Positions 12,613 to 41,188 of a stretch of DNA of 64,000 bases are shown piece after piece. A program made the translations under genes and the position numbers. Below the pieces are notes generated by a model. That model ran no database searches. It was not told the DNA's origin and saw nothing but the letters and a program-made list of their open reading frames with translations. The DNA comes from Solicola gregarius (GTDB lineage Bacteria; Actinomycetota; Actinomycetes; Propionibacteriales; Nocardioidaceae), in the NCBI RefSeq assembly GCF_025790165.1, contig NZ_CP094970.1, positions 992,001-1,056,000 on the forward strand. The letters run 5' to 3'. Each line of letters begins with the position of its first letter. Within the stretch, counting starts at the first letter, position 1.

Positions 12613-12643
12613 ACGGCGTTCGTCTGTAGACGGCATGGCGGTG

Positions 12644-12673
12644 CCCCGCCGCGGTGGTGCTGTCGCGGCGGGG
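12644..12673. terminator. hairpin between dehydrogenase and DUF222-HNH copy 1
   Basis: CCCCGCCGC and GCGGCGGGG form a perfect 9-bp stem with a 12-base loop, lying between two convergent genes. The same hairpin, with one mismatch, sits at the same place beside HNH copy 2 (30082-30111). There is no T-run. Confidence 0.6.
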
Positions 12674-12676
12674 AAC

Positions 12677-14074
12677 CTAAGCGGCGTCGTGTTTTCGCCT
12701 GTCTTGGATGGTCTTGGCCACGCGGCCGGGGAGTTTGGTGGTGGTGCCGCCGGTGACGAGGTAGGACCGTCCGGCGGGTGATTGCCAGAGCCAGATGCCG
12801 GGTGCGGGTGATTGCACGGTCCAGGCGGTGAAGGTTTTCGCGCGGTGGTGATACCTACATAGTCGGTGGCCGTTTCTCGAGTCGGTCGGGCCGCCTTCTC
12901 GGTGGTTGATGATGTGGTCGTAGTCGCCGACCCTGGCGCGGCGGTTGCAGTGCGGGAAGGTGCAGGTGCCGGCGTTCATCAGCGCGAGCTGCTCTTTGAG
13001 CCGCGGTGGTGCGACGTAGCCGGTGGCCGAGATGGTGGTCTCGAGGTCGATGACGGGCTTCACGGTGATGTGGGAGTGGCCGAGGATCTCGGCGGCTTCG
13101 GAGCGGGTGATGGCGCCGACGTCTTCGAGGGACCAGGTGCCCCAGCACCGGTCGAAATGGACGTACAGAACGGTGTGCCGTGAACTGGAGCGGCGCCCTC
13201 GATGTGACCGTTCGGGTGACCCGCCGTCGCCGGGCTGGTCGGCCGGCTCCGGGTCCGGCTCCGGCTTCGGTTCGGTCTTGTCGGTCTGGTCGGCGCGGGC
13301 TGCCTGGACGTGGTGGTAGAGGTCGTCGAGGCTGTCGGGTTCGTCGAGCATGCCGAGTGCGACCGAGCGCAGGATGTCGTGAGGGCGGTTGTCGCCGAGG
13401 AACCGCAAGGATTCGACGATCTGGTCGAGGCGCTGATCGAGCCGTTTCCCGTCGTCGAGCGACAGGGTGCCGGAGATGCGGGCGAGTCCGTCTTCGGGCC
13501 AGATCGACACACTCCGCCGACGCCGGTTTTCGTTGCGTTGGTTTTCGGGGTCGTCGGGGTCTTCGACGATGCGGATCTGGTCCAGGATCTGGTTCACCCG
13601 CCCCATGCCGACCCGCGCGATCAACGGCGTCCCATCCACATTCGCAGCCGACAGACGTCGGTCGGCGTCGCCGGCCTGGGCCAAAGTGAATCGTCGGGTC
13701 TTGCGGGCGACTTTCCGGATCCGCCACGCATCCACCGAACCTTCGTGCAGACACGCGAACAGTTGCGGGAGACGGTAGACGAGGTCCAATGCGTCGGCGA
13801 TCAGGTCCCGGCCACCGGATGCACTCAAGCCCAGTGCGGGGCCGACCTCACACGCGGCGTACTCCGACACGCTCGGGGTGCCCGACCCGCCGTAACGGGT
13901 CCACTCATTGACACCACCGGCACGTGCGAGCGGCGTGTCTGCAGTGTCGGCGAGGTAGCCGAGCAGGGCGTCGTACTGGGCGGCCTCGGACTTGGCGATC
14001 CGACGCCGCGCATCCAGCGCAACATCGAGCCCGTCCTCGGACCCGGTGTCGGTGGTGAGTGTGGCCGCCCTCAT
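12677..14074 (-). CDS. DUF222 / HNH endonuclease-domain protein (13E12 family), copy 1
   Basis: The start is the ATG at 14074. An ATG three codons upstream is ATA in copy 2, so the shared one is preferred; this gives 465 residues. The N-terminal DUF222 domain covers roughly residues 15-260, followed by an acidic, proline-rich linker (KPEPDPEPAD). The C-terminal HNH module has CTFPHC, the DYDHIINHREGG core and NGHRLCRYHH, giving His/Asn metal ligands plus cysteines for a structural zinc. Family members are common in actinomycetes, often multicopy and of unknown role. Copy 2 at 30115-31524 is almost identical. Upstream sequence remains open in frame but its frame is not shared between copies, so it is not coding. 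Confidence 0.9.
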   Translation of the reverse strand: MRAATLTTDTGSEDGLDVALDARRRIAKSEAAQYDALLGYLADTADTPLARAGGVNEWTRYGGSGTPSVSEYAACEVGPALGLSASGGRDLIADALDLVYRLPQLFACLHEGSVDAWRIRKVARKTRRFTLAQAGDADRRLSAANVDGTPLIARVGMGRVNQILDQIRIVEDPDDPENQRNENRRRRSVSIWPEDGLARISGTLSLDDGKRLDQRLDQIVESLRFLGDNRPHDILRSVALGMLDEPDSLDDLYHHVQAARADQTDKTEPKPEPDPEPADQPGDGGSPERSHRGRRSSSRHTVLYVHFDRCWGTWSLEDVGAITRSEAAEILGHSHITVKPVIDLETTISATGYVAPPRLKEQLALMNAGTCTFPHCNRRARVGDYDHIINHREGGPTDSRNGHRLCRYHHRAKTFTAWTVQSPAPGIWLWQSPAGRSYLVTGGTTTKLPGRVAKTIQDRRKHDAA

Positions 14075-14123
14075 AGAACACATTCTGCCACCCACCACCG
14101 ACAGAACCGGATGCCCAGAAGGC

Positions 14124-14132
14124 TTATCCACA
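14124..14132 (-). promoter_or_regulatory. DnaA-box-like nonamer before HNH copy 1
   Basis: TTATCCACA on the plus strand reads TGTGGATAA toward the gene, 49 bases before the ATG at 14074. The identical nonamer lies at the same distance before HNH copy 2. Adjacent TCGAGA-AAG-TCTCGA symmetry (about 14149-14163) could be a second protein site. Confidence 0.5.
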
Positions 14133-14196
14133 AGGGAATATGAGAAAGTTCGAGAAAGTCTCGAGAAGTGTGCGAGGTGTGGTCGGCGGCGGAAGA

Positions 14197-14238
14197 GAAT
14201 CTGCGTTTGGGTGCGGATAGCGACCCAAACGCAGATTC
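14197..14238. repeat. 42-nt perfect hairpin in the HNH copy 1 leader
   Basis: GAATCTGCGTTTGGGT (14197-14212) is matched exactly by its inverse complement at 14223-14238 around a 10-base loop. A 16-bp perfect stem is much stronger than chance. It is conserved in copy 2 with one loop change. Its proximal end is 123 bases from the start codon. No T-run follows on either strand. Confidence 0.85.
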
Positions 14239-14510
14239 CTTCATCGGCAACGGCCGGGCCGGCATCGAAGGGCACGGAATCGATGAAGGTGGAAGCGAAA
14301 TGGTGGGAAAGCCGACCGGCGACCCGAGCCACCCGGATACGGATCTCGTCGCCGCCTATCGGTCTGCACCGCCGCGCACGGGAACGGTGAAGGCGGAAGC
14401 CCAGCGCACGGAATGGTGGAAGCCGGAAGCCCAGCGCACGGAAGGTGAAGGTCGGAAGCCCGGCGCACGGAGAGGCGGAGCCAGAAGCCCAGCGAACCGA
14501 ATGCAATGAA
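14239..14510. repeat. leader repeat tract of HNH copy 1 (30-nt period)
   Basis: This stretch holds no gene. Toward its far end, four tandem units begin GGAAGCCCAGCGCACGGA at 14395 and 14425, with variants at 14454 and 14483, a period of 29-30 bases. Between the units and the hairpin lies a conserved block containing GTCGGCTTTCCC on the minus strand (about 14310-14321). The same organisation recurs at 31.7-31.98 kb and 49.85-50.1 kb. Confidence 0.7.
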
Positions 14511-20320: not shown

Positions 20321-21592
20321 ATGCTCAACATCACGAGCCGCGTACGCGCATGGGTCGGGAGACGGCTGCTGGCTCGCGCGACGAGGGACGGGTTCGACCT
20401 GTCCAAGGTCGCCATGGTTCCCGACCATCTGCTGATGCCGCTCAAGCGCGACGGGGTCGACCCGGTGCCCGAGCTGGGCGAGGTTCGCGACCGCGAGCCG
20501 ATCAGCAAGCTCAGCCTGCCGTTCGACCTGAACGCCTGGCTGGTCACCGGGCATGCCGAGGCGCGCGCGGTGCTCACCAAGTCGGCGAGCTACAGCACCG
20601 ACATCCGGCACCTGCTCGGCCAGGCCGCCAAGGACGAGACCGGCGGCTTGGGCTTCACCGATCCGCCCGACCACACCCGACTCCGCAAGATCCTCACCCC
20701 CGAGTTCACGATGCGCCGGATCTCGCGGCTACGGCCGACGATCCAGGGCATCGTCGACGACCGCCTCGACCTGCTGGAGAAGGCCGGTCCCGGTGCCGAC
20801 CTGGCGACGATCTTCGCGTTCCCGATCCCGTTCCTGGTGATCTGCGAGCTCCTCGGTATCGGCGAGGAAGGGCGCGACGAGTTCCAGCAGCTGGGCACCG
20901 CGCGCTTCGACGTCAGCAAGGGCGGCCCCGGCGCGTTCGGCGCGATCGCGGAGTCCCGGTCGTTCATCCGCACCGCCGTCAAGGAGCAGCGCGCGAACCC
21001 CGGCGACGGCCTGCTCGGCATGATCATCCGCGACCACGGTGACGCGATCGACGACGAGGAGCTCGCCGGACTCGCCGATGGGGTGTTCACCGGGGGGTAC
21101 GAGACGACGGCGGCGATGCTCGCGCTCGGCACGATGGTGCTGCTGCGCGATCGCGCCAACTACGAGGCGATGCGCACTGCCGACGACGACGCGGTGCACC
21201 GCACCGTCGAGGAGCTCCTTCGCTACCTGGCCGTCGTCCAGGTAGCGTTCCCGCGGTTCGCCAAGGAGGACCTCGAGGTCGGAGGCGAGTCGATCGCCGC
21301 GGGAGACGTCGTACTCGTCTCGCTGAGCGGCGCCAACCGCGACGGTACGCTCGGCACCGACATGGACGGGTTCGACCCGACCCGGCAGCCGACGCCGCAT
21401 TTCACGTTCGGGCACGGCATCCACCGCTGCATCGGCGCCGAGCTCGCCCGGATGGAGCTGCGCGCGGCGTATCCGTCGCTGTCGCGGCGCTTCCCCGACC
21501 TGCGGCTCGCCGTGCCGCCGGAAGAGCTCGAGTTCCGCAAGCACTCGCTGGTGTACGGCATCGAGTCGCTGCCGGTGACCTGGGGCGACTAG
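20321..21592 (+). CDS. cytochrome P450 monooxygenase
   Basis: The ATG at 20321 gives 423 residues. All P450 landmarks are present: I-helix GGYETT (Gly in place of the usual Ala before Gly), K-helix EELLRYL (ExxR), and the heme-binding loop FGHGIHRCIGAELAR with cysteine ligand Cys370. The short soluble form matches bacterial class I enzymes, so ferredoxin and ferredoxin reductase would come from elsewhere; none is adjacent. The substrate is not predictable from sequence. The TAG stop lies at the edge of a 162-bp inverted-repeat element. Upstream 112 bases include a small CCCGG...CCGGG hairpin. Confidence 0.95.
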   Translation: MLNITSRVRAWVGRRLLARATRDGFDLSKVAMVPDHLLMPLKRDGVDPVPELGEVRDREPISKLSLPFDLNAWLVTGHAEARAVLTKSASYSTDIRHLLGQAAKDETGGLGFTDPPDHTRLRKILTPEFTMRRISRLRPTIQGIVDDRLDLLEKAGPGADLATIFAFPIPFLVICELLGIGEEGRDEFQQLGTARFDVSKGGPGAFGAIAESRSFIRTAVKEQRANPGDGLLGMIIRDHGDAIDDEELAGLADGVFTGGYETTAAMLALGTMVLLRDRANYEAMRTADDDAVHRTVEELLRYLAVVQVAFPRFAKEDLEVGGESIAAGDVVLVSLSGANRDGTLGTDMDGFDPTRQPTPHFTFGHGIHRCIGAELARMELRAAYPSLSRRFPDLRLAVPPEELEFRKHSLVYGIESLPVTWGD

Positions 21593-21753
21593 GGTCCTGC
21601 GTTCGAAGTGGCTTTACGGAAGGCGTCGTCCAGGTGGATGCATCCGCAAGGCCGAGAAGGAAGGTCATAGTGGGCCCTATTTCCGACGACGAGAACGCCG
21701 CGGGGCGCCGCCTGGGCGGCGAAAGACGGCAAGGTACTTCGAACGCAGGGCCC
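21592..21753. mobile_element. MITE-like 162-bp element at the P450 stop codon
   Basis: GGGTCCTGCGTTCGAAGT at the left end is complemented at 17 of 18 positions by ACTTCGAACGCAGGGCCC at the right end. Weaker inverted similarity continues inward for about 20 more bases. There is no transposase gene inside. No clear target duplication is visible (left flank TA, right flank TG). A very large terminator cannot be excluded. Confidence 0.55.
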
Positions 21754-21757
21754 TGGT

Positions 21758-30075: not shown

Positions 30076-30081
30076 TGGGTG

Positions 30082-30111
30082 CCCCGCCGCGGTGGTGCTG
30101 TCGCGACGGGG
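30082..30111. terminator. hairpin beside DUF222-HNH copy 2
   Basis: CCCCGCCGC and GCGACGGGG form a 9-bp stem with one mismatch around a 12-base loop, directly after the stop of HNH copy 2. It matches the hairpin at 12644-12673 beside copy 1, showing that the duplicated unit includes its terminator. Confidence 0.6.
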
Positions 30112-30114
30112 AAC

Positions 30115-31524
30115 CTAAGCGGCGTCCCGTTTTCGGCGGTTGCGGATGGTCGCTGTGGTGCGGCCGGGGAGTTTGGTGGTGGTGCCGCCGGTGACGAGGT
30201 ACGACCGTCCGGCGGGTGATTGCCAGAGCCAAATCCCGGGTGCGGGGGTGGATACCTGCCAGGCGGTGAACGTCTTCGCGCGGTGGTGATACCTACATAG
30301 TCGGTGGCCGTTTCTCGAGTCGGTCGGGCCGCCTTCTCGGTGGTTGATGATGTGGTCGTAGTCGCCGACCCTGGCCGGACGCGTGCAGTGGGGAAAGGTG
30401 CAGGTGCCGGCGTTCGTCAGCGCGAGCTGTTCCCTGAGCCGTGGTGGTGCGACATAGCCGGTGGCGGAGATGGTGGTCTCGAGGTCGATGACGGGTTTGA
30501 CTGTGACGTGGGAGTGGCCGAGGATCTCGGCGGCTTCGGAGCGGGTGATGGCGCCGACGTCTTCGAGGGACCAGGTGCCCCAGCACCGGTCGAAATGGAC
30601 GTACAGGACGGTGTGCCGCGAGCCGGAGCGGCGGGCCCGATGTGCCCGTTCGGGTGACCTGCCGTCGCCGGGCAGGTCGGCCGACTGGTCGGCCGGCTCC
30701 GGGTCCGGCTCCGGCTTCGGTTCGGTCTTGTCGGTCTGGTCGGCGCGGGCTGCCTGGACGTGGTGGTAGAGGTCGTCGAGGCTGTCGGGTTCGTCGAGCA
30801 TGCCCAGGGCGACGGAGCGGAGGATGCCGTAGGGCCGGTTGTCGCCGAGGAACCGCAAGGATTCGACGATCTGGTCGAGGCGCTGATCGAGACGTTTCCC
30901 GTCGTCGAGGGACAGGGTGCCGGAGATGCGGGCAACACCCTCGTCGGGCCAGATCGACACACTCCGCCGAGCACTGTTTTCGTTGCGCTGGTTTTCGGGG
31001 TCGTCGGGGTCTTCGACGATCCGGATCTGGTCCAGGATCTGGTTCACCCGCCCCATGCCGACCCGCGCGATCAACGGCGTCCCATCCACGTTCGCAGCTG
31101 CGAGTCGCCGGTCGGCGTCGGCGGCCTGGGCGATCGTGAATCGTCGGGTCTTGCGGGCAACCTTGCGGAGCCGCCACGCATCCACCGACCCGGCGTGCAG
31201 GCACGCGAACAGTTGCGGGAGACGGTAGACGAGGTCCAATGCGTCGGCGATCAGGTCCCGCCCACCGGATGCACTCAAGCCCAGTGCGGGGCCGACCTCA
31301 CACGCGGCGTACTCCGACACGCTCGGGGTGCCCGACCCGCCGTAACGGGTCCACTCATTGACACCACCGGCACGTGCGAGCGGCGTGTCTGCAGTGTCGG
31401 CGAGGTAGCCGAGCAGGGCGTCGTACTGGGCGGCCTCGGACTTGGCGATCCGACGCCGCGCATCCAGCGCAACATCGAGCCCGTCGCCGGACCCGAGATC
31501 GTCGGTGAGTGTGGCCGCCCTCAT
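30115..31524 (-). CDS. DUF222 / HNH endonuclease-domain protein (13E12 family), copy 2
   Basis: From the ATG at 31524 the product has 469 residues, four more than copy 1 because of a SADL insertion in the linker. Domain order is the same: DUF222, acidic linker, then HNH with CTFPHC, DYDHIINHREGG and NGHRLCRYHH. Differences from copy 1 are scattered substitutions, many in the linker and the last 60 residues (TPAPGIWLWQ against SPAPGIWLWQ). The leader, DnaA-box-like nonamer, 42-nt hairpin and terminator are duplicated too. Both copies are intact, so both may be expressed, or one may be a recent duplicate. Confidence 0.9.
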   Translation of the reverse strand: MRAATLTDDLGSGDGLDVALDARRRIAKSEAAQYDALLGYLADTADTPLARAGGVNEWTRYGGSGTPSVSEYAACEVGPALGLSASGGRDLIADALDLVYRLPQLFACLHAGSVDAWRLRKVARKTRRFTIAQAADADRRLAAANVDGTPLIARVGMGRVNQILDQIRIVEDPDDPENQRNENSARRSVSIWPDEGVARISGTLSLDDGKRLDQRLDQIVESLRFLGDNRPYGILRSVALGMLDEPDSLDDLYHHVQAARADQTDKTEPKPEPDPEPADQSADLPGDGRSPERAHRARRSGSRHTVLYVHFDRCWGTWSLEDVGAITRSEAAEILGHSHVTVKPVIDLETTISATGYVAPPRLREQLALTNAGTCTFPHCTRPARVGDYDHIINHREGGPTDSRNGHRLCRYHHRAKTFTAWQVSTPAPGIWLWQSPAGRSYLVTGGTTTKLPGRTTATIRNRRKRDAA

Positions 31525-31573
31525 AGAACATATTCTGCCACCCGCCACCGACAAGACAGGGTGCTCAGAGGCC

Positions 31574-31582
31574 TTATCCACA
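31574..31582 (-). promoter_or_regulatory. DnaA-box-like nonamer before HNH copy 2
   Basis: TTATCCACA on the plus strand, TGTGGATAA toward the gene, 49 bases before the ATG at 31524, exactly as in copy 1. Beside it, the segment ATCCACAAGGGAATTCGAGA occurs twice in tandem (about 31577-31616), a local duplication absent from copy 1. Confidence 0.5.
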
Positions 31583-31666
31583 AGGGAATTCGAGATCCAC
31601 AAGGGAATTCGAGAAAAGTTCGAGAAAGTTTCGAGAAGTGTGCGAGGTGTGGTCGGCGGCGGGAGA

Positions 31667-31708
31667 GAATCTGCGTTTGGGTGCGCATAGCGACCCAAAC
31701 GCAGATTC
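31667..31708. repeat. 42-nt perfect hairpin in the HNH copy 2 leader
   Basis: The arms at 31667-31682 and 31693-31708 are identical to those in copy 1 (GAATCTGCGTTTGGGT and its complement). The loop is GCGCATAGCG, one base different. Retention of a perfect 16-bp stem while neighbouring sequence has drifted argues for selection on structure. Confidence 0.85.
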
Positions 31709-31977
31709 CTTCCTCGCCACCGGGCCGGGCCGGCACCGAAGCGCACGGCAACGATGAAAGCGGAAGTGAAATGGTCGGGGAGAGCCGACCGGCAACCCGA
31801 GCCCACCGGGTACGGATCTCGTCGCCGCCATGCGGTCTGCACCGCCGCAAACGGGAAACGATGAAGGCCGGAAGCGAATCGAACGGGAAACGATGAAGGC
31901 GGGTAGCGAGGCGCACGGAAAGGTGAAGGCCAGAAGCCCAGCGCACGGAAAGGGTGAAGGCGGAAGCCAAGGCGCCC
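31709..31977. repeat. leader repeat tract of HNH copy 2
   Basis: There is no gene here. Repeated words include GGGAAACGATGAAGG (twice, near 31854 and 31886), and GAAGCCCAGCGCACGGAAA near 31934 with variants. The minus strand again carries the conserved block GTCGGCTCTCCCC, as at copy 1. The tract ends at the stop of the next operon's last gene (31978). Confidence 0.65.
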
Positions 31978-38438: not shown

Positions 38439-39803
38439 ATGCACAGACGCCTCACTCTCGCCGGCGCGGCGGCCGTGGTCGGCTGCTCGGCACTGATCGC
38501 CAGCGGGCTGGCGAACGCCGATACCGACGACGCATCCGCCCCTGACTCGCTGAAGGGGGCCTTCGCCGACGCCGCCTCGACGTACGACGTACCGCGCGAC
38601 GTGCTCGCGTCCCTGGCGTATACCGAGAGCCGGTTCGTGCAGCACGACGGGCCCAGCCAGGACAACGGCTACGGCCTCATGCACCTCGAGTCGAACGCAG
38701 ACAACCACAACCTCGAGCGCGCGTCTCGGCTGACCGACCACAGCGTCGACGAGCTGCAGAGCGACGCGACCGCGAACATCGACGGTGCGGCAGCCGTGCT
38801 TCGCAAGCTCGCCGACCGGTCCGGTCTCGACGGGTCTGACCGGTCCGACCTGGCACAGTGGTACGTGCCGCTCGCCAAGTACGCGCGCGGCCAGACGAAG
38901 TACGGCGCGAAGCTCGAGGCCGACGCGGTGTTCGACAACGTACGTAACGGATTCACCCACCGCGCCGACGGCGAGCGCCTTTCTGTCGCGGCCCACGACG
39001 TACGACCGGAGCGCGGGGCGTACGCGGGTCTGCGTACGGCGGCCGACGGGGTACAGACCCAGTCCGACGACTACCCGGCGGCCCTCTGGGTGCCCGCGAG
39101 CTCGTCGAACTACTCCGCAGGCCGTAGCTCGGCAATCAGTGCCGTCGTCATCCACGTGACGCAGGGCTCGTACGCCGGAACGATCTCGTGGTTCCAGAAT
39201 CCCGAGGCCCAGGTATCGGCGCACTACGTGGTCCGCTCGAGCGACGGCGAGATCACCCAGATGGTCCGCGAGGCCGACACGGCCTGGCATGCACGCGACG
39301 GAAACTCGTACGCGGTCGGCATCGAGCACGAGGGCTACGTCGACGATCCGGCCTGGTTCACCGACGTGATGTACCGCTCCTCGGCCGCACTCACCGCCAA
39401 TATCGCCGACGACAACGGCATCCCGAAGGACCGCGAGCACATCGTCGGCCACAGCGAGGTCCCCGGCAACGATCACACCGACCCGGGCGCGAACTGGGAC
39501 TGGGACCTCTACATGTCGTACGTGACCGGCGGCGAGGAGCCGGACCCCGAGGAGGGCGTGCCGTTCACGACCTGGGGAAGCGGCGTCAACGTACGCGCCG
39601 ACGCGACCACGCAGTCGGATGTCGTCGGCTCGTTGTCCGGTCCGACGAACGTGCGGGTGCTGTGCCAGAAGGAGGGCGAGAACGTGTCGTCCGGCGGATA
39701 CAGCGGCGCTTGGTGGTCGAAGCTGAAGGACCAGGGTGGGTTCATCGCGAACATCTTCGTGGATCATCCCGACAACAAGCTGCCCAACGTGCCGCTCTGT
39801 TAG
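38439..39803 (+). CDS. secreted cell-wall hydrolase: lytic-transglycosylase-like + amidase_2 + SH3
   Basis: The 454-residue product has a signal peptide (to about residue 27, SGLANA). Residues 35-170 look like a lysozyme/SLT-type domain: Glu63 in YTESRF would be catalytic and GYGLMHL (77-83) matches the GLMQL motif. Residues 230-362 are an Amidase_2 (N-acetylmuramoyl-L-alanine amidase) domain with zinc ligands His239 (VVIHVTQGS) and His346 (DHTDPG). Residues 376-454 form a bacterial SH3-like wall-binding domain. It would cut both glycan and stem-peptide linkages. The TAG stop lies at the edge of a MITE-like element. Confidence 0.9.
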   Translation: MHRRLTLAGAAAVVGCSALIASGLANADTDDASAPDSLKGAFADAASTYDVPRDVLASLAYTESRFVQHDGPSQDNGYGLMHLESNADNHNLERASRLTDHSVDELQSDATANIDGAAAVLRKLADRSGLDGSDRSDLAQWYVPLAKYARGQTKYGAKLEADAVFDNVRNGFTHRADGERLSVAAHDVRPERGAYAGLRTAADGVQTQSDDYPAALWVPASSSNYSAGRSSAISAVVIHVTQGSYAGTISWFQNPEAQVSAHYVVRSSDGEITQMVREADTAWHARDGNSYAVGIEHEGYVDDPAWFTDVMYRSSAALTANIADDNGIPKDREHIVGHSEVPGNDHTDPGANWDWDLYMSYVTGGEEPDPEEGVPFTTWGSGVNVRADATTQSDVVGSLSGPTNVRVLCQKEGENVSSGGYSGAWWSKLKDQGGFIANIFVDHPDNKLPNVPLC

Positions 39804-39967
39804 GTCGTGTCGGCTTATGCCGCGTCGATCAGGGAGCGGGTCTGCGCGCCCGGTCTGGCAAGGCGTGGGAGCGAAGTTGTAGTTGGTTTCTCCTGCGAGC
39901 GACCGCAACGCAGCCAGGCGGGATGCGAAGGCACGCGAGCCGGCGGGGTATAAGCAGACACGACCTA
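39801..39967. mobile_element. MITE-like 167-bp element at the amidase stop codon
   Basis: The ends TAGGTCGTGTC... and ...GACACGACCTA are inverted repeats matching at 19 of 21 positions. Each end carries TA, as expected for TA-target insertion of IS630/Tc1-type elements. There is no transposase gene inside. Its left TA-G makes the amidase TAG stop codon. The interior is GC-rich and without a convincing gene. Confidence 0.6.
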
Positions 39968-40005
39968 TAGACCTCCTGGGGCTCCCCCCGGCCTCAGGAA
40001 TGATT

Positions 40006-40036
40006 CGGCCCCGAACCCACACCGGGTTCGGGGCCG
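40006..40036. terminator. strong bidirectional terminator
   Basis: CGGCCCCGAACCC and GGGTTCGGGGCCG form a perfect 13-bp stem with an ACACC loop; GTTTC follows on the plus strand. It lies between the amidase gene and the convergent epoxide hydrolase gene. Confidence 0.85.
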
Positions 40037-40048
40037 TTTCGCGTCTCG

Positions 40049-41188
40049 TCAGCGGGCGTAGAACGCGCGCAGCTCTTCGGCGAGCACCTCCGGCACCTCC
40101 ATCGACGCGAAGTGCCCACCGCGCGGGCGGCTGGTCCACGACACGATGTTCGTGTTGTCGCGCTCGGCGAACGGCCGCATCGACTTGAAGTCGTCGGCGA
40201 ACACCGTGACGCCGATCGGTCCTTCGTTGACCCGCGCCTCGACGCCCTTCTCCGCGTAGTGGTACCGCACCGCGCCGGAAGCGGTGTTCGTCAACCAGTA
40301 CAGGCTGATCTGGGTCAGAACCTGGTCACGGCTGAGCAGGCTGGTGTCGTTGCCGAAGTTCTCGAACAGCTCGTTGTACGCGAGCTGGCCGACCGGCGAG
40401 TCGCTCAGGGCGGCGGCGATCGTCTGCGGCCGCGAGGCGTTCATCAGCGCGAATCCGTTGACGGTCTGGAACCAACCGGCGAACTCGAGCGCCGCGTAGT
40501 CCTCGGGAGTCATCTTCTCGAACTCGGCGGGGTCACCCGACGGGAACGAGAACAGCTGGAGTACGTGCGCGCCGAGGAATCCCTCCGGGTTCAACATCGC
40601 CAGCTCGCGCGAGACCATCGCACCACCGTCGGAGCCGTGCGCACCGTACGACTCGTAGCCGAGTCCTCGCATCAGGGTGTCCCACGTCCGCGCCACCCGC
40701 GCCATCGTCCAGGCGCCTTCGGCGACGGGCGTACTGAAGCCCATACCGGGCAGGCTCGGGACGACGACGTGGAACGCGTCCTCGGCGCGCCCACCGTGCG
40801 CCTCGGGATCGGTCAGCGGGCCGATCGCGTCGAGGAAGTCGACGAACGAGCCGGGGTAGGTGTGGGTCAGCACGATCGGCGTCGCGTCCTCGTGCGGCGA
40901 GCGCACGTGCACGAAGTGGATCTGCTGGCCGTCGATCTCGGTCAGGAAGTGCGGGAACTCGTTCATCCGCGCCTCTTGTGCTCGCCAGTCGAAGGCCGAC
41001 GTCCAGTGGTCGACCATGTCGCGCAGGTACGAGACGGGTGCACCCTGCGCCCAGTCGTCACCGGGGACCTCGGTCGCGAAGCGGGTGTTCTCGAGCCGGG
41101 CGCGAAGATCGTCCAACGCGGCTTGTGGAATCGCCACCTCGAACGGGCGGACGGCGAGGGTGCTCTGGGTGCTCGGTGTGTTCGTCAT
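40049..41188 (-). CDS. epoxide hydrolase-family alpha/beta hydrolase
   Basis: The ATG at 41188 (AGGGG upstream) gives 379 residues. The N-terminal EHN domain starts RPFEVAIPQAALDDLRARLENTRF, followed by an alpha/beta-hydrolase core with oxyanion motif HTYPGS (109-114; HGWPGS in most relatives), nucleophile Asp187 in HGSDGG, and the catalytic His in GGHFASMEVPE near the C-terminus. Such enzymes open epoxides with water; juvenile-hormone-type and limonene-type hydrolases share the layout. The Thr in HTYPG is a deviation from the usual Gly. It is divergent from a WYL regulator, which may control it. Confidence 0.88.
   Translation of the reverse strand: MTNTPSTQSTLAVRPFEVAIPQAALDDLRARLENTRFATEVPGDDWAQGAPVSYLRDMVDHWTSAFDWRAQEARMNEFPHFLTEIDGQQIHFVHVRSPHEDATPIVLTHTYPGSFVDFLDAIGPLTDPEAHGGRAEDAFHVVVPSLPGMGFSTPVAEGAWTMARVARTWDTLMRGLGYESYGAHGSDGGAMVSRELAMLNPEGFLGAHVLQLFSFPSGDPAEFEKMTPEDYAALEFAGWFQTVNGFALMNASRPQTIAAALSDSPVGQLAYNELFENFGNDTSLLSRDQVLTQISLYWLTNTASGAVRYHYAEKGVEARVNEGPIGVTVFADDFKSMRPFAERDNTNIVSWTSRPRGGHFASMEVPEVLAEELRAFYAR

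Follow-up and report, generated by a model that had tools for sequence, protein, structure and literature searches.

A hairpin-forming MITE-like element at the amidase stop codon of Solicola gregarius and its relatives with variable ends and a conserved tip

Results

An inverted-repeat element overlaps the stop codon of an amidase gene

We analyzed a 64,000-nucleotide stretch of the Solicola gregarius genome (contig NZ_CP094970.1, positions 992,001 to 1,056,000; hereafter the window), in which an amidase gene ends in a TAG stop codon shared with a short inverted-repeat element and a cytochrome P450 gene carries a second such element at its own stop (Table 1). The left end of the amidase-linked element and the reverse complement of its right end (TAGGTCGTGTCGGCTTATGCC and TAGGTCGTGTCTGCTTATACC) agree at 19 of 21 positions with TA at both outer ends, as a first-pass annotation of this DNA had reported, and a repeat search of the window extended these terminal arms to 27 nt at 85% complementarity. 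Folded with 10 nt of flank per side, 39801–39967 reaches –95.2 kcal/mol, compared to –78.1 kcal/mol (sd 4.2) for shuffled sequences, none of which (0 of 200) equaled it. The amidase TAG (39801–39803) takes its G from the left end of the element and its TA from the left copy of the target. The right flank reads TATAGACC, with no clean single-TA junction.

The second element, which the first-pass annotation had also placed on a stop codon, is real and forms the TAG of the P450 gene (20234–21592). It matches covariance model R1 with E = 3.6e-8 in a search of the window and thus belongs to the same superfamily with other arms: the two elements share a similar apical motif, the CTAG target, and the stop-codon position, and they differ in their terminal arms. 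Counting the element itself, the host genome contains 23 matches to it and a congener 13; three of the host places were also found by model R1. The second element folds to –103 kcal/mol on the plus strand versus –76.7 kcal/mol on the minus strand. The window also holds 42-nt near-perfect palindromes at 14197–14238 and 31667–31708, within a duplicated region (pieces of 12640–14434 and 30078–31971) whose four longest two-copy families are 88 to 93% identical.

Table 1. Features of the amidase locus and of the second element, in window coordinates
Feature	Position	Strand	Basis
Host gene, encoding a 454-aa product (Amidase_2 and SLT domains; SH3_3 below threshold); element overlaps its TAG stop	38439..39803	+	
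Target TA, left copy; supplies the first two bases of the amidase TAG stop	39801..39802	.	TA at both ends; other copies compared to the congener
Element proper, 163 nt, GGTCGTGTC...GACACGACC	39803..39965	+ (better-folding strand)	Repeat, fold, BLAST, covariance model
Left terminal arm; IS5-type terminal inverted repeat and outer stem	39801..39827	+	
Conserved apical motif, 5' strand (GGC-AAG-GCG-NN-G-GA-GC-GA)	39857..39873	+	
Conserved apical motif, 3' strand (GA-GC-GAC-CGCAA-CGC-A-GCC)	39897..39915	+	
Right terminal arm, pairing with the left arm	39941..39967	+	
Right copy of the duplicated TA, followed by TAG (TATAG); untidy junction	39966..39967	.	
13-bp perfect inverted repeat followed by TTT; apparent terminator of the amidase gene	40006..40036	+	Similar one 3' of the element-free orthologue
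Second element, different subfamily (ends TAGGGTCCTGCGTTCGAA), similar apical motif, at the P450 TAG stop	21588..21757	+	

The element is dispersed in the host genome and duplicates TA on insertion

With the 167-base element as query, BLAST returned 38 host matches, the query's own among them; four are halves of two split copies. A covariance model built on 29 copies (27 from the host, 2 from the congener) gave 53 rows in the host. Once 12 rows that repeat a place on the opposite strand are merged, these represent at least 41 places, of which 39 are strong and 2 weak; the number is a lower bound, since 150 of 6939 first-look candidates were scored and the second element of the window is missing from that listing. 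We compared 36 host loci with 20 congener stretches at predicted places and three further congener loci. The full element is absent from the congener at all 11 orthologous sites with both flanks readable, a count that leaves out L044, for which a single flank is present in the congener stretches.

Insertion with duplication of TA is seen directly at other copies. At L026, the host reads CCCTATC-TA-element-TA-GAGCAGG and the congener CCCTATC-TC-GAGCAGG; at L005, the congener site also carries the TA; and at L012, the duplication is recognizable with the left TA decayed to CA. TA is present at both ends in 14 of 40 host copies at fixed coordinates, and 12 of those 14 lie in C-TA-G. Duplication of all four bases of CTAG would fit most copies and fails for L001, L012, and the IS copy L115, and we therefore prefer duplication of TA. 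With terminal inverted repeats at both ends, several dispersed copies too small to hold a transposase gene, and a target duplication relative to empty sites (clear at L005 and L026, with one TA decayed at L012 and an untidy junction in the window), the original description of a MITE-like, TA-duplicating mobile element holds.

Some copies have more complicated histories. At the L016 site, the congener (L097, near 18590) retains GGTCATGTCTCC, about 12 bases resembling the left end, abutting the right flank; this fragment looks like the deletion remnant of a shared older insertion. Five copies (L016, L017, L018, L030, and L128) contain a second palindrome (CCCCCAGCCGC..GCGGCCGGGAGGTGCCCCC), inserted once or twice at two places within the element, which is a nested repeat family. 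Seven divergent host copies (L118, L119, L120, L121, L126, L127, and L129) have other arms, for example TAGTACCTCG, TTAGAGGTTC, and CTAGATGAGT; several kinds of ends thus coexist in one host genome.

Target choice explains the position of copies on stop codons

To ask where copies lie relative to genes, we examined 40 host copies (the 41 covariance-model places minus 3157465) with a simple and rough gene caller, under which 10 called starts overlap a copy by 7 to 117 nt. All but one (39 of 40) lie outside called genes, the exception being L129, which is inside a called frame. The element end coincides with a stop codon in 10 of the 40, on one side in L001, L003, L004, L005, L021, and L024 and on the other in L016, L019, L020, and L119; L127 becomes an eleventh if its end is moved by one base. 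CTAG sites are few, with 116 in about 460 kb (the window plus the congener stretches, two of which overlap by 6.3 kb that is counted twice), and the TA falls within a called stop codon at 26 of the 116 (22%), versus 104 of 6944 TA sites in general. An element that seeks CTAG is therefore expected on stop codons about as often as observed, and target choice explains the position. Because the first base of the element is G, insertion at the TA of a TAG stop rebuilds the stop as TA + G. Such stop-preserving insertion is confirmed by the congener at L005, whereas L003, L004, L019, L020, and L119 fit it by reconstruction; the window copy deviates from the scheme by one extra TA.

The first-pass annotation had suggested that insertion may have redefined the end of the amidase. 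Removing the element and one TA does leave TGT-TAT-AGA, as it claimed. The closest orthologue, however, from the element-free site in the congener (82% identical), ends at the same Cys with a TGA stop. Among eight amidase orthologues with 52 to 82% identity, four end at the same residue, three end one residue later, and one (L066) has a longer frame and another repeat. The first-pass annotation had itself proposed this comparison of C-termini and had taken a shared end residue as grounds for giving up the idea, and for the amidase that is what the comparison returned. Past the amidase stop, the congener DNA aligns with the host DNA that lies 3' of the element, and the alignment takes in a terminator-like hairpin. 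For other genes, a change of protein end did occur: in L026, L029, L118, L124, and L128, the called frame ends 14 to 37 nt within the element, and therefore some copies do alter protein ends. This is confirmed by the congener for L026 (host, 1501–1668), where PYLEQAAK-stop in the congener (L091) has become PYLGRV-stop in the host.

The TATAG junction at the amidase could also mean that the ancestral gene had no stop at this place and that insertion restored one, as reconstruction with a single-TA duplication implies and as the altered end at L026 makes conceivable. We consider this improbable: seven of the eight orthologues terminate at, or one residue beyond, the place of insertion, the empty congener site for L005 is itself a TAG, and slippage of TA after insertion at TGT-TAG would yield the same letters. 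We infer that later TA slippage is more likely than a stop that was lost and regained.

One strand of the hairpin folds better

The RNAalifold consensus contains 55 pairs, 35 of them with changes on both sides. Overall, 96.9% of the cells are paired, and none of 500 shuffles reaches the observed pairing, double changes, or covariation score; sliding the partner strand drops pairing to 34 to 44%. The consensus fold has –84.3 kcal/mol on the plus strand compared to –41.3 kcal/mol for the reverse complement, and each of the 29 copies folds lower on the plus strand (means –104.1 versus –82.7). The same holds in other named genomes, in which 113 of 116 pattern loci (116 being usable of 120) fold lower on the plus strand. 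These are all 99 long hairpins, which were defined by a threshold on the plus-strand fold, and 14 of the other 17 loci. Departures in the plus-strand structure comprise 151 G-U and 10 A-C, a count biased by the fact that this structure itself favors G-U. In the 37 pairs common to the folds of both strands, there are 37 G-U and 6 A-C, and in the 40 minus-fold pairs with a Watson-Crick majority, 37 G-U and 7 A-C; taken over all 42 minus-fold pairs, the counts in plus-strand letters are 37 G-U and 65 A-C, with two pairs that are mostly wobble on the minus strand. We conclude from covariation and strand asymmetry that the hairpin is maintained by compensatory changes and G-U pairs, a strand preference not expected from neutral decay of a DNA palindrome.

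These observations bear on a simpler account, that of an ordinary DNA-only MITE whose arms match since one transposase reads both ends and whose remainder decays neutrally. The match of arms to a local IS (below), the TA duplication, and the many decayed ends all agree with it, and reading of the terminal repeats could by itself explain arms that stay complementary while their letters change. Neutral decay should be strand-symmetric, though, which is at odds with the plus-strand preference of all copies in the host genus and nearly all loci elsewhere and with the excess of G-U over A-C in both the common pairs and the (G-U-biased) plus structure; moreover, the apex is strongly conserved although it lies far from the ends. 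We regard this account as rather unlikely.

The strand preference fits RNA and single-stranded DNA alike, and the plus-strand hairpin might then act as single-stranded DNA, as a recombination or transposition substrate comparable to HUH/REP or attC systems. Asymmetry and pairing would suit either nucleic acid. TA duplication and IS5-type terminal repeats, in contrast, point to a DDE transposase, an enzyme that acts on double strands, and HUH elements are not known to make a target duplication of this kind. We therefore think a single-stranded DNA role unlikely.

A third account treats the copies as domesticated 3'-end regulators, kept for stabilizing or ending host mRNA. The location of nearly all copies outside called genes, many of them at gene ends, is consistent with it, and altered mRNA decay has been reported for ERIC and Correia elements (PMC10969869, PMC2229807). 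Against it, of the 37 gene 3' ends directed at a copy (L129 left out), 13 meet the element in the folding sense and 24 in the opposite sense, the congener is without full copies at all 11 comparable sites, and the stop-codon position is about as CTAG choice predicts. Copies thus occur in both orientations relative to genes, which argues for a benefit to the element and against a role fixed by host 3' UTRs; we judge the regulator account quite improbable.

The ends resemble those of IS5-type elements

The first-pass annotation had attributed the ends to an IS630/Tc1-type element. Profile searches with PF13358 (DDE_3), PF13340, and PF01609 found no match in the host or congener genome, whereas the same searches matched in 3, 5, and 9 of 14 control genomes, respectively. 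A DDE_3 partner as expected for IS630/Tc1 is thus missing from the genome; a TA duplication is present, but it is common to PF13340 elements and so is indecisive, and IS630 elements too use TA. We found 14 PF13340 loci in three genomes of the same order, and 12 of the 14 have TA-flanked terminal repeats starting GGGCGTGT (TA being required by the search). CTAG is present on both sides in 11 of these 12 elements, with C left of TA in 11 and G right of TA in 12. We take these elements to be the IS427 subgroup of IS5.

In Actinopolymorpha, the MITE arm GGGTCTGTCCTGCGGATC equals the arm of the local IS, GGGCGTGTCCTGCGGATC, at 16 of 18 positions, well beyond the shared first bases, a match shown in this one genus. 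The Actinopolymorpha IS therefore resembles our family in its TA flanks within CTAG, the start of its repeat, and its arm, and differs in that the element has no transposase gene and its host no PF13340 or PF01609 match. At 30 PF01609 loci in other element-bearing genomes, we found no TA-flanked terminal repeat equal to the arm of the element. In summary, terminal repeat and target are like those of autonomous PF13340-type IS5 members, and an autonomous partner in the same genome is missing from host and congener alike. IS5-type parentage is better supported than IS630, and the element looks like an IS5 derivative by its ends and target.

Two further candidates for a mobile partner in the host were rejected. 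The end pattern with one mismatch has 138 host matches, 100 of them listed; at the 12 stretches examined around matches other than known copies (5 exact matches), there was no partner end that would indicate an autonomous full-length copy. Two copies near 2795371 and 2796768 might have formed a composite transposon, but the pair flanks coding frames that are presumably phosphate-transport genes.

The apical motif recurs in distant taxa

BLAST found matches in 9 of the 39 genomes of the relatives search, the host among the nine. With the covariance model at E ≤ 1e-6, 50 of 245 genomes of the same order (host included) had matches, in 11 of 38 genera and nearly all full length among those listed; across the phylum, 19 of 296 genomes (host included) and 17 of 199 genera had matches. 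A pattern scan of named genomes gave at least 120 stretches, including Nocardioides, Kribbella, Gordonia, Micromonospora, Pseudonocardia, Streptomyces, and Actinomadura. When 80 pattern loci were tested, 70 matched covariance model R1 at E ≤ 0.01 (75 rows). L180, L203, L214, and L219 are among the ten unmatched loci, although the folds of L214 and L219 resemble those of members; the model has no match anywhere in the L214 genome. Six pattern hits in other taxa (L173, L189, L191, L228, L229, and L236) were judged non-members by their folds. We searched plasmid and phage collections with the window copy and found no match, nor did plasmids match two distant copies.

Of 17 genomes reached through pattern loci, 11 have matches at E ≤ 0.001. 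Beyond Actinomycetota, these are the isolate Noviherbaspirillum sp. Root189 (8 matches, best E 3.2e-7), two Selenomonas assemblies (1 and 5 matches, E about 1e-5), a termite-gut clostridial assembly (9 matches, best E 3.8e-9), and a Thiohalomonas assembly (5 matches, best E 1.4e-5, the best one being partial only). Members outside the phylum derive mostly from metagenome assemblies, score weakly (best E per genome 3.8e-9 to 1.4e-5), and were picked by a pattern that imposes part of the apical motif. Outside the search pattern, 85 distinct copies strongly conserve CGACGAC before AACGC, U before the core, and AG after it. The apical motif occurs throughout Actinomycetota, combined with ends that are unrelated yet self-complementary, and apparently also in Selenomonas, Noviherbaspirillum, and the clostridial assembly.

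The arms behave differently from the center. We compared 50 distant copies from a 52-row alignment, leaving out the second L150 copy and the L288 row for the opposite strand. Average pairing of the outer 22 nt is 93% (shuffled 43%) and reaches at least 80% in 48 of the 50; identity of these nucleotides to the window arm is 44% (shuffled 27%). For the central 68 nt, identity is 71% compared to 58% for shuffled, gapped sequence, a modest gain over that baseline, and the conserved motif is the stronger evidence. The Selenomonas copies (L193, L202, L211, L296, L297, and L306) are 157 nt long, look alike, and have apparent 3-base TAA/TTA duplications, which sets them apart from the TA duplications of Actinomycetota. 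In the clostridial assembly, the flanks suggest a TTAA duplication. Duplications of both kinds are associated with other IS5 subgroups.

Discussion

The element belongs to a family that is apparently undescribed. Against Rfam 15 (4227 models), the window region 39600–40200 and the loci of six relatives gave matches below the gathering score only. A literature search, with subscription papers, supplements, and ISfinder outside its scope, turned up no description of the family, and the sole match to its motif strings was an unrelated human promoter paper. The closest known kinds are ERIC/IRU, Correia/NEMIS, and RUP, which are described as TA-ended bacterial MITEs of about 100 to 170 nt with many copies mostly between genes and, for ERIC and Correia, a predicted stem-loop RNA (PMC2229807, PMC10969869). 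By those descriptions, our element is like them in size, TA termini, and mostly intergenic copies and unlike them in hosts and sequences, with RUP being tied to IS630-Spn1; its ends are, in addition, IS5-like and variable, and its apical motif recurs in distant taxa. A 2024 survey describes a candidate mobile or repeat motif, MRSC-65-2, as a single long stem with covariation in diverse phyla, often with dozens of copies per genome and sometimes near a transposase gene (PMC11109978). So described, it shares with our element the single covarying stem, the many copies, and the diverse phyla. We found its conserved UYCCGG in no copy of the 29-copy host-genus alignment, whichever strand was read, and in 3 rows per strand of the 52-row alignment of distant copies. 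As judged from its text description, we thus do not identify our element with MRSC-65-2.

Together, these results make it likely, in our view, that the element represents a widespread family of structured MITEs moved by the IS5 family, targeted to CTAG, with a tip conserved as RNA and ends that follow local transposases. In this model, an IS5-family transposase of the PF13340 type would insert a non-autonomous element of about 163 nt at the TA of CTAG and duplicate the TA. The comparison at other copies shows insertion and duplication; the PF13340-type enzyme is the putative driver, as suggested by the ends, the target, and the relatives. Landing in the TA of a TAG stop would rebuild TAG from TA and the G of the element and leave the protein unchanged. 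In its plus sense, the element is predicted to fold into one long hairpin with the apical motif GGC-AAG-GCG-NN-GGAG ... CGACGACAA-CGC-A-GCC. The outer arms, which are specific to host and subfamily and yet self-matching within each copy, would follow the terminal inverted repeats of whichever IS5-family transposase is available; this tracking of local repeats is shown for one genus and may extend to the others. The conserved tip would work for the element as RNA, probably by binding a host or transposase factor.

We put forward more tentatively, as a possibility short of our main proposal, that the members from different phyla form a single mobile structured-RNA family whose outer stem has been re-matched to local IS5-family terminal repeats while the tip acts on a component shared by the hosts or the transposases. 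On that reading, the duplicated target would be TA in Actinomycetota; the Selenomonas copies would apparently duplicate TAA/TTA and those of the clostridial assembly TTAA. The cross-phylum RNA tip is possibly the larger story.

The common view of bacterial MITEs is that they are remnants of a single insertion sequence and do not persist for long. Here, the folded tip looks like the part that endures and the ends look exchangeable, which would invert this view: the element would be a long-lived parasite that carries an RNA and draws on different transposases over time. The model also offers a simple reason for mobile elements on stop codons in such genomes, since the target, CTAG, is sparse, frequently coincides with a stop, and is restored when the element inserts. 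Finally, the conserved tip opens a direct search for its binding partner.
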